From Chitinophagales bacterium (GTDB lineage Bacteria > Bacteroidota > Bacteroidia > Chitinophagales > UBA10324), in the NCBI GenBank assembly GCA_025056305.1, contig JANWWJ010000043.1:1-64000 (forward strand): 64,000 bases of DNA, read 5' to 3'. The position numbers and the translations under genes were made by a program. Below the pieces are notes generated by a model that had not been told where the DNA came from, did not search any database, and was given only the letters and a program-made list of their open reading frames with translations. Positions 38,078-42,744 of this stretch are shown here, piece by piece (the first letter of the stretch is position 1; each line of letters begins with the position of its first letter).

Positions 38078-38147
38078 GGCCCAGGCATCAGGCGGCCCAA
38101 CTAAGTTTTCCACAGCTTGCGCGAGCCAATACTTGCGTAACCATTCC

Positions 38148-38164
38148 TTAACATTACGTTAATA
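38148..38164 (+). promoter_or_regulatory. 11-base-period direct repeat upstream of the TonB receptor gene
   Basis: TTAACA (38148-38153) and TTAATA (38159-38164) are separated by five bases, an 11-base period. A matching pair occurs upstream of the beta-helix gene (41073-41089). Such direct repeats are typical binding sites for OmpR/PhoB-type response regulators. The identity of the regulator is inference. Confidence 0.4.
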
Positions 38165-38200
38165 CGTTGGTCAAAGCTTAACTAGTGCTTTGCGACGGAC

Positions 38201-41035
38201 ATGAACTACTTGCCAAGTTCTTTTCGACTCATCAGCCTTTTTGTATTTCTGTTTTTCCAACAAGCCCAAGCCCAATTTGGACATATCACCGGCATTGTCA
38301 CAGATGGCCAATTGAATGAGGTCCTGACAGGTGCTACCGTGTTTTTGGAGAACGACCGCAGCCGTGGTGCCATAACTGATGTGGATGGCCTTTTTACCAT
38401 CCGAAATGTTCCCGTTGGCATGCACAACCTCGTCGTTCAATATGTTTCATACCAAACTAAAGTTATCGAACAAGTTTACGTTGCTGAAGAAAAAACAACT
38501 GAGGTTCAGGTGGTTCTGCTTCCGATGGCGAAAGATCTGGAAGAGGTGGTGGTACGTTCAGAATTGAAAAAAGAATCGATCAATGCCTTATTGATCTTAC
38601 AGAAAAATTCTACATTGGTTCAGGATGGTATCTCCAGCGATCTAATCCGCCGCTCACCTGATAAAAACGCTGCCGAAGCCATGAAGCGGGTCAGCGGCGT
38701 TTCCTTGGCTGAGAGCAAATTCGCCATCATTCGTGGCCTCAGCGATCGTTACAACCTCGCTTTAATTAATGGAACTCCTTTGCCCAGTACCGAAGCCGAT
38801 CGCAAAAACTTCACCTTCGATCTGATTCCTTCCAACCTGATCGACAACATCATTGTGTACAAGACCGCCCAACCCGATTTACCTGGAGATTTTGCCGGTG
38901 GTGTCATACAGGTGAACACCCGCGATATTCCTGATCGGAAATTTTTCAACCTTTCCCTATCCAGCGGCTTTAATTCGATATCCACGTTCCGCCCATGGTA
39001 TGACTACCAAGGAGGCAAACTGGATTTCCTGGGGCTCGACGATGGCTCGCGTGCTCTGCCTTCTGACTTTCCTCCCACTGAAATTGTTCAGCAAGCCTTA
39101 ACTGAAGACATCATTGCATATTCCCAAATGTTGCCTAATAATTGGGCATTGTTTCGTCACCCATCTATGATGCCTAACTACAGCGGTCAATTTTCGGCCG
39201 GCATGGGCAATCCACAGTTCGGCGGCATCATATCGATAACCTACAATCGCTCCCAACGCTTTAATCAAAATATCCGACAGGATTTCGATTTCTTAGAAAC
39301 CAACCCAAAGTTCCGCTATCTGGATTCGGCATATGCTACAAGTGTACTGGCAGGGGCCTTATTCAACATTGGCTGGCGAATCTCTGCAATGGATAAGATC
39401 ACATTCAAAAATTCATATACCATCAACTCCAGCGATCTTACCACGGTACGCGGAGGCCAAAATATCGAGCAACAGTTCGATGTTCGCAACTACGCATACG
39501 AGTTTGTCTCCAATCAGCTTTACAACTCACAACTTTTGGGAGAACATGCTTTGTTCAAGTCGCGCTTAAGAATACAGTGGTACGGCGCTTACAGCCTGAC
39601 GCGGAGAGATCAGCCCGACTTCCGCAAGCTGTATTACAACCGCAACAGCGGTTCCGCCGATCCGTTTCTGGCCTACATTCCGGTTGGGTCTGCCTCGCCA
39701 AATCTGGCCGGCAAGTTCTATGCTTATCTCCAAGAAGACGCTTATTCCGGTGAGGTAAAACTTACCTACCACTTTAATGTGCAGGAACGCAAGAATGCGC
39801 TACGAACAGGCCTTTTTTATCAGCATCGAAACCGTGTCTTCGATGCTCGGGTGTTAGGTTATACCATAACGAATTTTATTAAATTTTATACCGAAAATGA
39901 AGATCCCAATGCCATTCTCAGCTCTGCCCCCGGCGATTTGTTCCAATCAAATCACATCGGCGAAGCTGGCTTCAGCATCGATGAAATAACCAACCCCTCT
40001 GATCACTACGAAGGGCAAAGCAACCTGACGGCCACCTACCTCATGATGGACCAGCAAGCATTGCCGTGGTTGCGGTTAATTTACGGTGCCCGTTTGGAAT
40101 TTTTTCACCAGCGTTTGCAGTCATTTGATTATACCAACCGCCCGGTCGACGTTAATACCTATTCGCGCGACATCGGCAATCTGCCCTTTGATCTGTTGCC
40201 CTCCATCAATGCCATCTTCAAGGTTACGGAAAATGCCAACCTGCGTGCTGCCTTTTCGAAAACTGCCGTACGTCCTGAATTCCGTGAACTGGCACCCTTT
40301 TCCTTTTACGATTTCAGCACCACTTCGGTCATCATAGGTAATGACACATTGGCGCGCAGCAACATTTACAACTACGACCTTCGCTTTGAGGTCTTTCCCG
40401 GTTCAGGGCAAGTTTTTTCCATAGGTGCTTTTTATAAAAAGTTTCATGAGCCCATAGAACAAACGATTGACTTCATTAGCAGCGGGGGCTACATCCGCTC
40501 CTACCGCAATGTGACGTCGGCGCGCAATTACGGCATGGAGGTGGATGCCCGCAAACAGCTCAGTTTCCTCAGCCACTGGTGGCACCAAATGGAAAACATC
40601 GTGCTTCAGCTCAACGCTGCATGGATACGATCTGTTGCCGATGTATCGCTCATTGCAAACGCTGCCGATAGCACCCGCAGCCTCCAGGGGCAATCGCCCT
40701 ACATCATTAACCTGGGCATTTCCTACATGGAGCCCACGAGCGAAACCAGTGTCACTTTATTGTTCAATCAAATCGGCCGACGCATCATGTTTGTCGGATC
40801 GAGTGAGTACATGGACATTTACGAACACAGCCGCCCCCTTGTAGATCTTCAGCTTTCCCGACGCATCATTACCCATGGTACCCTTCGGCTCAACATTCAT
40901 GACCTGCTGGCTCGTGACGGCATCCTGTATCAAGACGTAAACGATGACGGCCGGTTCCGTCCGGATGACGACAAAGAAATTGTTCGTTCCAAAACAGGAA
41001 CCGTAATTTCTTTGGGCTTTTCCTACAGCTTTTAA
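38201..41035 (+). CDS. TonB-dependent outer-membrane receptor with carboxypeptidase-regulatory-like domain
   Basis: A 944-residue outer-membrane protein. A signal peptide (LISLFVFLFFQQAQAQ) is followed by a carboxypeptidase-regulatory-like domain at ~27-112 (ITGIVTDGQLNEVLTGATVFL...DVDGLFTI). A plug domain follows at ~115-270 (RRSPDKNAAEAMKRVSGVSLAE, FAIIRGLSDRYNLALINGTPLPS, DFAGGVIQVNTRD), then a beta-barrel ending in the terminal phenylalanine FSYSF. It would import a large or scarce nutrient using TonB/ExbBD energy. There is no SusD partner; instead a T9SS-exported beta-helix protein follows 111 bases downstream and shares an upstream direct repeat. The substrate is unknown. Confidence 0.9.
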   Translation: MNYLPSSFRLISLFVFLFFQQAQAQFGHITGIVTDGQLNEVLTGATVFLENDRSRGAITDVDGLFTIRNVPVGMHNLVVQYVSYQTKVIEQVYVAEEKTTEVQVVLLPMAKDLEEVVVRSELKKESINALLILQKNSTLVQDGISSDLIRRSPDKNAAEAMKRVSGVSLAESKFAIIRGLSDRYNLALINGTPLPSTEADRKNFTFDLIPSNLIDNIIVYKTAQPDLPGDFAGGVIQVNTRDIPDRKFFNLSLSSGFNSISTFRPWYDYQGGKLDFLGLDDGSRALPSDFPPTEIVQQALTEDIIAYSQMLPNNWALFRHPSMMPNYSGQFSAGMGNPQFGGIISITYNRSQRFNQNIRQDFDFLETNPKFRYLDSAYATSVLAGALFNIGWRISAMDKITFKNSYTINSSDLTTVRGGQNIEQQFDVRNYAYEFVSNQLYNSQLLGEHALFKSRLRIQWYGAYSLTRRDQPDFRKLYYNRNSGSADPFLAYIPVGSASPNLAGKFYAYLQEDAYSGEVKLTYHFNVQERKNALRTGLFYQHRNRVFDARVLGYTITNFIKFYTENEDPNAILSSAPGDLFQSNHIGEAGFSIDEITNPSDHYEGQSNLTATYLMMDQQALPWLRLIYGARLEFFHQRLQSFDYTNRPVDVNTYSRDIGNLPFDLLPSINAIFKVTENANLRAAFSKTAVRPEFRELAPFSFYDFSTTSVIIGNDTLARSNIYNYDLRFEVFPGSGQVFSIGAFYKKFHEPIEQTIDFISSGGYIRSYRNVTSARNYGMEVDARKQLSFLSHWWHQMENIVLQLNAAWIRSVADVSLIANAADSTRSLQGQSPYIINLGISYMEPTSETSVTLLFNQIGRRIMFVGSSEYMDIYEHSRPLVDLQLSRRIITHGTLRLNIHDLLARDGILYQDVNDDGRFRPDDDKEIVRSKTGTVISLGFSYSF

Positions 41036-41072
41036 TAAGCCCTTAACTATTTGCAAATATTCAGCTTACAAT

Positions 41073-41089
41073 TTAACAAAGGTCTAACA
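41073..41089 (+). promoter_or_regulatory. 11-base-period direct repeat upstream of the beta-helix gene
   Basis: TTAACA (41073-41078) and CTAACA (41084-41089) repeat with an 11-base period, like the pair at 38148-38164. The site is 57 bases before the start codon, a position consistent with activation by a response regulator. Confidence 0.4.
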
Positions 41090-41145
41090 TTAAAGAAAGA
41101 TAAGGTTTACCTGAAAAATTTTGCTTTGGGTCAAAATACTGTCAC

Positions 41146-42744
41146 ATGAAAAAATTTTTTACTCTTTCAGCCTTGCTGGTGGCCTTTGTGCAAAGCCGTG
41201 CAGACGAGGTCATTTCCGGTTATATCACCCAAAACACCACCTTGACCAACGACAAAATCTGGCTGCTTCAGGGTTTTGTCTATGTAACCAACGGCGCCAC
41301 GCTTACCATTGAACCCGGCACCATCATAAAAGGCGATAAAGCCACTAAAGGTGCTCTCATCATCACGCGAGGGGCCAAACTCATTGCTAATGGCACTGCT
41401 CAGCAGCCTATCGTTTTCACCTCCAACGGACCGGTAGGATTCCGCAACTACGGTGATTGGGGCGGCATTATCTTATTGGGTCGCGCTTCTATTAACCAGC
41501 CCGGTGGAGAAGCCGTCATCGAAGGTGGTGTTGAAGACGGTCAAGGCAACGGTACCTATGGCGGTGGTCTTAATCCCGACGATAACGACAACAGCGGCAT
41601 CCTTCGGTACGTGCGCATCGAATTCTGCGGCATCGCTTTTCAGCCCAACAGTGAAATCAACGGCCTGACTTGCGGCGGCGTGGGGCGTGGCACTACTCTC
41701 GAATACATTCAGGTCAGCTTCTGCGGCGACGATGCCTTTGAATTCTTTGGCGGAACGGTCAACGCAAAATACCTGATTTCCTACCGCACCTTAGACGATG
41801 ACTTCGACACCGACAATGGTTACCGCGGCCTCATTCAATTTGCCTATGCCCTGCGTGACCCTGCCATCGCCGACGTCAGCGGCTCCAACGGCTTTGAATC
41901 CGACAACGACCCCACCGGTTCGCCCAACACCCCGTTTACTCAAACCGTTTTCAGCAACATAACTATTGCAGGCCCGCGTGCTACTTCCTCTACTTCCATC
42001 AATGGCAGTTACCGACGCGCCGCCCACCTGCGCCGCAATACCCGAACCAGCATTTACAACTCCGTCTTGATGGGCTTTCCTACAGGTATCATGATTGACG
42101 GCAGTGCCTGCGAAGCCAATGCCACCAACGACATCCTTCAGGTGCGCAACACTGTAATCAGCGGCTGCACCAACAATTTCGAAGTCGCCTCAGGCAGCAC
42201 TTTTGACATCAGCGGTTGGTTTAATAATGCCTCATATAATAACAAAACCTATTCTTCCAACACTGCGCTTGGATTAAAAGACCCCTTTAACTTGACCAAC
42301 CCCAACCCTTTGCCGTCCGACACCAGCCTGCTGCTCTCCGGTGCCGACTTTACCCATGCAGCTCTCAGCGATCCTTTCTTCACGCAAGTGACCTACCGCG
42401 GAGCCTTTGGCACCGTAAACTGGACCGAAGGCTGGGCTGAATGGAATCCTAATAACGTACCCTACACCGGCATTTCGGAGTCAGCCACATTTACCAATCT
42501 GAGGATCTTCCCCAACCCGGCTGCGCACTCAGCTGTGATTCAGTTCTCGCTGGCCACGCAGCTGCCGGTACACATCTTCATCACCGATTTGAGTGGCCGC
42601 CACATTACCGACGTGATTCATGAGACCATGGCTGGCGGCTCGCATCAAGCCATTATTGATTTGAGCCAATGGGCTCGAGGCAGCTACCTGGTAAAACTTA
42701 AAGCCGGTAATTCCTCCGCTATCCATAGGCTGAACGTGCTTTAG
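41146..42744 (+). CDS. T9SS-exported right-handed beta-helix protein
   Basis: A 532-residue exported protein. The signal peptide is MKKFFTLSALLVAFVQSRAD. The body, about residues 25-440, is rich in short strands of the parallel beta-helix kind (GATLTIEPGTIIKGDKATKG, GAKLIANGTAQQPIVFTS, NYGDWGGIILLG, YIQVSFCGDDAFEFFGG). A T9SS type A sorting domain closes the chain (LRIFPNPAAHSAVIQFSL...ARGSYLVKLKAG). No polysaccharide-lyase active site can be assigned. Proteins of this build often accompany a TonB receptor in Bacteroidota, which suggests that it captures or presents the substrate of the receptor upstream (inference). A strong terminator follows. Confidence 0.82.
   Translation: MKKFFTLSALLVAFVQSRADEVISGYITQNTTLTNDKIWLLQGFVYVTNGATLTIEPGTIIKGDKATKGALIITRGAKLIANGTAQQPIVFTSNGPVGFRNYGDWGGIILLGRASINQPGGEAVIEGGVEDGQGNGTYGGGLNPDDNDNSGILRYVRIEFCGIAFQPNSEINGLTCGGVGRGTTLEYIQVSFCGDDAFEFFGGTVNAKYLISYRTLDDDFDTDNGYRGLIQFAYALRDPAIADVSGSNGFESDNDPTGSPNTPFTQTVFSNITIAGPRATSSTSINGSYRRAAHLRRNTRTSIYNSVLMGFPTGIMIDGSACEANATNDILQVRNTVISGCTNNFEVASGSTFDISGWFNNASYNNKTYSSNTALGLKDPFNLTNPNPLPSDTSLLLSGADFTHAALSDPFFTQVTYRGAFGTVNWTEGWAEWNPNNVPYTGISESATFTNLRIFPNPAAHSAVIQFSLATQLPVHIFITDLSGRHITDVIHETMAGGSHQAIIDLSQWARGSYLVKLKAGNSSAIHRLNVL

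Follow-up and report, generated by a model that had tools for sequence, protein, structure and literature searches.

Predicted Pho boxes before a TonB-dependent receptor gene and a neighbouring beta-helix gene in a Bacteroidota genome

Two neighbouring genes in a 2.41-Mb Bacteroidota genome, encoding a TonB-dependent receptor and a secreted beta-helix protein, are each preceded by four direct repeats with an 11-base period, and both arrays lie within a stretch of 64,000 nucleotides that we refer to as the window. The arrays form a genuine regulatory element, well conserved and of a kind already known, and comparison of promoter sequences makes it highly likely that they are Pho boxes, that is, predicted tandem sites for a PhoB-type regulator at two activated promoters. 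The two genes, which would serve nutrient capture at the cell surface, are very probably switched on jointly at phosphate exhaustion, since their four-repeat switch also precedes phosphate-uptake genes of relatives. An original prediction, made from a single pair of repeats before each gene, had proposed an OmpR/PhoB-type regulator and a nutrient such as phosphate as the signal, and is supported in the main.

Two four-repeat arrays in one promoter geometry

The two promoters and their genes comprise the following features, given as positions in the window.

38137..38142, + strand: repeat 1 of the receptor array, GTAACC, placed by a gapless fit to eight orthologous promoters
38148..38153, + strand: repeat 2 of the receptor array, TTAACA, the first half of the originally predicted pair
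38159..38164, + strand: repeat 3 of the receptor array, TTAATA, the second half of that pair
38170..38175, + strand: repeat 4 of the receptor array, GTCAAA, degenerate
38189..38193, + strand: TTTGC, putative -7 element of the receptor promoter, 13 bases past repeat 4
38201..41035, + strand: TonB-dependent receptor, 944 aa, with a CarboxypepD_reg-like domain (Pfam PF13715, PF07715, PF00593)
41073..41078, + strand: repeat 1 of the beta-helix array, TTAACA
41084..41089, + strand: repeat 2 of the beta-helix array, CTAACA
41095..41100, + strand: repeat 3 of the beta-helix array, GAAAGA, degenerate
41106..41111, + strand: repeat 4 of the beta-helix array, TTTACC, degenerate
41125..41129, + strand: TTTGG, putative -7 element of the beta-helix promoter, 13 bases past repeat 4
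41146..42744, + strand: secreted beta-helix protein, 532 aa, all-beta in its structural model, with a type IX secretion tail (PF18962)

The pairs from which the prediction started, TTAACA-TTACG-TTAATA at 38148-38164 and TTAACA-AAGGT-CTAACA at 41073-41089, are present letter for letter. They had been described as alike in sequence, period and position before the start codon; sequence and period agree, while the position does so only loosely, with 36 bases to the ATG at 38201 versus 56 to the ATG at 41146. Within the full arrays the pair corresponds to repeats 2-3 before the receptor and repeats 1-2 before the beta-helix gene, an offset of exactly one repeat, and the register of both arrays with the -7 element is exact (38137-38193 and 41073-41129).

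This geometry was read from 15 promoters, namely 13 of relatives and both own, all of which share, without gaps, a template of four TTAACA-like hexamers with an 11-base period followed after exactly 13 bases by TTTGC or TTTGG (15/15). The relatives' set consisted of eight receptor promoters and five beta-helix promoters (G008, G005, G006, G009 and G004), the latter from loci in which the gene follows the receptor and its promoter lay within the fetched DNA. These 13 arrays were picked by eye from their repeats; the 13-base gap to TTTGC was noticed later and holds in 13/13. The major base reached a mean frequency of 0.88 in the hexamer cores and 0.92 in TTTGC versus 0.53 in the spacers. The putative element TTTGC is consistent with TAnnTTTG, which PMC7366714 quotes as the -7 consensus for the primary sigma factor of Bacteroidota, and the part of that paper used here describes the -33 motif of Flavobacterium johnsoniae as not identified. 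Both arrays thereby contain two or more tandem direct repeats with an 11-base period, as Pho boxes do.

Both repeats are genuine and beyond chance. In their own intergenic stretches, the two-repeat word arose in 0.06% and 0.10% of 5,000 dinucleotide shuffles, and never in both. We derived a gapless weight matrix from the 13 promoters of relatives, with the own genome held out; it scored the receptor site at 47.0 bits and the beta-helix site at 22.1 bits, ranks 1 and 2 in the window on both strands, compared with 12.6 bits for the best of 60 dinucleotide shuffles. A profile based on the sequences of these 13 promoters alone was also run against 15 of the family's 16 genomes, with E-values that are only approximate according to the tool. 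In the own genome, the receptor promoter was the best match (E 2.4e-8) and the beta-helix promoter the second (E 0.072), the latter array being weak at repeats 3-4; a further match (C19:41032, E 4.34) lies immediately upstream of the beta-helix array.

Sites before phosphate genes of relatives and across the class

Among relatives, a template site precedes the porin gene in 7/7 porin-pst loci whose promoter lay within the fetched DNA (G014, 42.2 bits; G210, 28.1; G059, 27.9; G011, 26.3; G002, 22.5; G015, 21.9, with its porin gene cut off by the contig end; and G013, 13.0), a count that leaves out G010, where the promoter lies past the contig end. The pstS operon of G001 has a site as well (18.5 bits), and all of these promoters were outside the training set. 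One stretch of G014 combines a beta-helix homolog, a receptor, a Porin_O_P-like gene (Pfam 20.8 bits, slightly below the cut-off of 20.9), PstS, PstC, PstA, PstB and PhoU. Matches of the held-out profile, with neighbouring genes named by BLASTP and Pfam, lay before the gene preceding pstS in G014 (E 4.3e-6), a receptor paralog in G008 (E 2.7e-5) and a beta-helix homolog in G001 (E 8.3e-5). The best match in G002 was directly upstream of phoB-phoR (E 2.3e-4), and another, G007:C394:10273 (E 1.2e-5), lies so near a contig end that its gene escaped identification. Relatives thus carry sites upstream of pst or phoB genes (porin-pst loci, the G001 pstS operon and some phoB genes), as expected for a Pho box.

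This comparison lends support to both parts of the original prediction, the OmpR/PhoB-type regulator and phosphate: the four-repeat promoter of relatives precedes porin-pst loci, a pstS operon and phoB, and frequent neighbours of the receptor/beta-helix pair are phoB, phoR, pst or a PhoD phosphatase. In G005 and G006, for example, a PhoD-like phosphatase gene is found directly 3' of the beta-helix gene (L050:2057-3439 and L052:6238-7590).

We then scanned 20 beta-helix loci, picked from listed places for spread over families of the class, with the matrix rebuilt from all 15 promoters. A receptor homolog adjoins the beta-helix gene in 17/20 of these loci, and a PhoB of at least 49% identity is present in 8/20. 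Overall, 16 positions reached at least 16 bits, whereas 10 block shuffles gave 0.1 such positions on average and never more than 1. Upstream of receptors adjacent to the beta-helix gene, sites were present in 13/17 cases at 8 bits and in 10/17 at 16 bits; two further receptors away from that gene had none upstream. Beta-helix genes themselves carried a site in 7/20 cases at 8 bits and in only 1/20 at 16 bits, phoB genes in 3/8 at 8 bits and in only 2/8 at 12 bits, and both of the two porin genes in these loci were preceded by one. No site stood directly before the three PstS genes (0/3), because they sit inside operons. Among other open reading frames of at least 250 aa, 3/118 had a site at 8 bits and 0/118 at 12 bits.

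Relatives of the receptor were found at E <= 1e-50 in 9/16 family genomes, the own included, and relatives of the beta-helix protein (E <= 1e-30) in 290 of the 395 genomes sampled from the class. The structural model of the latter is all-beta (mean pLDDT 90.3). A sequence comparison with the PDB returned no match, and Foldseek against the PDB gave only weak matches with TM-scores of about 0.2; right-handed beta-helix proteins are frequent among them, which fits the fold class and gives no function. Seven genomes (G018, G057, G065, G102, G135, G196 and G224) encode two beta-helix domains in a single open frame, some 1260-1290 residues long. Separately, G013 has a receiver-only response regulator near its pst cluster (L116:4274-4651), and other genomes have short PhoB-like fragments next to pst or receptor genes.

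Phosphate genes of the source genome and alternative readings

The source genome has its own PhoB/PhoR pair, in a canonical operon on contig C44 that encodes PstS, permease and ATPase components, PhoU, PhoB and PhoR; the best NCBIfam model of this regulator is PhoB (217 bits, below the cut-off of 296). The original prediction had suggested looking for the motif at pstS, and here it did not hold: a search of the own pst operon promoter (L028) for a template site found none, which is the main counterpoint to the Pho-box reading. Operons of the same type in G008, G005, G009 and G012 likewise gave no template site and that of G006 scored 10.3 bits, so that 0/6 of this type reach 12 bits. The pstS promoter of G012 does contain TTAACA-N5-TTAACA, which the gapless matrix overlooked. 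The template-free pst operons of G005 (L060) and G009 (L058) share a different, partly inverted conserved element in their pstS promoters, GTTAYCAAAT...ATTTCRTAA.

Elsewhere in the genome, the profile matched before a TonB receptor at C19:116130 (E 0.13). The CarboxypepD-type TonB receptor at C19:113630-116166 (L029, L182) follows TTAAGC-TTAACA-TTAACA-GTAATA with an 11-base period (21.6 bits) and without TTTGC at the template position; by eye, a TTAACR-N5-TTAAY pair precedes 5/7 of its orthologs. Several other candidates were rejected. The match at C44:43812 (profile E 0.47), before the open reading frame preceding exbD, had no matrix support at its own locus or in the corresponding stretches of four relatives. 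TTAACA-N5-TTAAAA at C19:67177 (L031), a one-mismatch pair before genes for a 126-aa product, MbnP and a MauG-like di-haem protein, does not fit the template; a MauG-like/PhoX pair is listed as phosphate-induced in F. johnsoniae in the part of PMC8115612 used here. The pair before a receptor at C15:163493 is wrongly spaced from its -7-like element and scored below 8 bits, and C41:179064 and several more pair sites fall within open reading frames.

The absence of a site at the own canonical pst operon would suit another reading, in which the arrays bind a different OmpR-family regulator that answers another signal. The genome encodes five Trans_reg_C regulators, among which a diverged PhoB-like protein at C25:17137 is an example of such a candidate. 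It belongs to a second receptor/beta-helix set (C25:12000-28552, L055), made up of a divergent TonB receptor, a beta-helix paralog with fn3 and SprB domains, the PhoB-like response regulator and an SBBP-repeat T9SS protein; the regulator sits between the beta-helix paralog and the T9SS protein with the receptor paralog alongside, and the receptor and beta-helix paralogs both carry weak four-repeat template sites (11.7 and 11.8 bits). In other families, however, the regulator adjacent to the pair is closer to canonical PhoB (50-59% identity) than to the C25 protein, whose own best NCBIfam match is a Bacteroides-type PhoB model (193 bits, below the cut-off of 270), and the template is found before porin-pst operons and phoB. 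We therefore consider a different regulator improbable. In favour of the Pho-box reading, an alignment of PhoB-type proteins that includes the two candidates of the own genome shows RT(I/V)DVH in the recognition region of 14/14.

It is very improbable that the repeats have no specific regulator and are instead a conserved piece of the core promoter or arose by chance from AT-rich sequence. TTAA-rich stretches are common, and the bare two-repeat word is unenriched, with 19 matches at up to one mismatch in the 2.41-Mb genome versus 36 for a reversed control, and 39 matches at up to three mismatches in the window versus 50.7 expected. The original prediction had named a frequency equal to chance as grounds for rejection, and the bare word, being unenriched genome-wide, falls on that side. 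Yet the 11-base period and the 13-base spacing are fixed in all 15 promoters, none of the 118 other long open reading frames is preceded by a site of at least 12 bits and shuffles yield almost no sites, so that a chance or core-promoter origin is already disfavoured by the shuffle and class-wide tests.

Proposed mechanism and comparison with known systems

If the arrays are Pho boxes, scarce phosphate would be the signal in this organism on which PhoR phosphorylates PhoB, and PhoB would be the protein that binds the four 11-base repeats, head to tail and immediately upstream of the -7 element. At Bacteroidota promoters, with at best a weak -33 element, bound PhoB may recruit RNA polymerase and so would activate rather than repress. 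Both gene products would then be made together, the two promoters answering jointly; the TonB receptor could act as importer in the outer membrane and the secreted beta-helix protein as its partner at the surface, with a cargo that is probably a phosphorus-containing compound.

We lean towards a broader reading, in which this is a class-wide Bacteroidota PhoB promoter type and the receptor/beta-helix pair a widespread, uncharacterised system that captures a phosphorus compound during phosphate starvation. On this reading PhoB, bound to four tandem 11-base half-sites whose distance from the -7 element is fixed at 13 bases, would replace a weak or missing -33 contact. The arrays would provide a concrete, testable sequence template for phosphate-controlled promoters of Bacteroidota, a phylum for which the literature searched says little about Pho boxes, and would tie a very common, uncharacterised gene pair to phosphorus acquisition. 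Genome scans based on the template might delimit the Pho regulons of uncultured Bacteroidota.

Known systems are compared here on the basis of the relevant sections of the papers cited. Like the Pho box of PhoB/PhoP, the arrays consist of tandem direct repeats with an 11-base period, and the Pho box likewise lies before pst and phoB (PMC4415409). They differ from it in their letters, TTAACA/TTAATA rather than CTGTCAT (Escherichia coli) or GTTCACC (Streptomyces), and in having four repeats, the last of them separated by 13 bases from the -7 element of a Bacteroidota promoter. The PhoP consensus of Bacillus subtilis is TTAACA-like and is the closest Pho-box consensus. The cyanobacterial SphR box (CTTAACCT, 8-base repeats with a 3-base linker) agrees with the arrays in period and has an almost identical repeat; it comprises at least three repeats, and its phylum and promoter are different (PMC1906773).

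Within the phylum, the DAP-seq motif of Riemerella anatipestifer PhoP is similar in its core letters and includes a TonB-receptor promoter among its bound targets; its most conserved letters are TTTAACA, and gel shifts were obtained before phoPR and a TonB receptor, whereas the section consulted gives no four-repeat or fixed-spacing architecture (PMC9603813). The window has TTTAACA at 41072-41078 and CTTAACA at 38147-38153, the Riemerella letters being taken from the paper's text rather than its logo. A phoPR double mutant of Riemerella showed 8-fold higher pstS, a result at odds with simple activation in Riemerella, and its authors doubt a role in phosphate (PMC5399024). Besides the Riemerella motif, no Bacteroidota Pho box was named in our literature search, which left aside subscription journals and preprints. 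For Bacteroides fragilis, a gel shift of the pstC promoter with PhoB is described, in a paper where a word search returned no motif (PMC3547664).

In F. johnsoniae, Fjoh_0543-0546, neighbours by locus tag, encode PhoR, PhoB, a TonB receptor and a pectin-lyase-fold "hypothetical lipoprotein FII", and the last two are strongly induced by phosphate depletion, with 8.02 for the receptor (Fjoh_0545) and 9.91 for the pectin-lyase-fold protein (Fjoh_0546, IPR011050) in the fold-change column (PMC8115612). The second protein is called a lipoprotein there, whereas ours has a type IX tail. Likened by description, the gene pair reported here resembles that of the F. johnsoniae phoBR operon, in which a receptor and a pectin-lyase-fold surface protein stand beside phoBR (PMC8115612).
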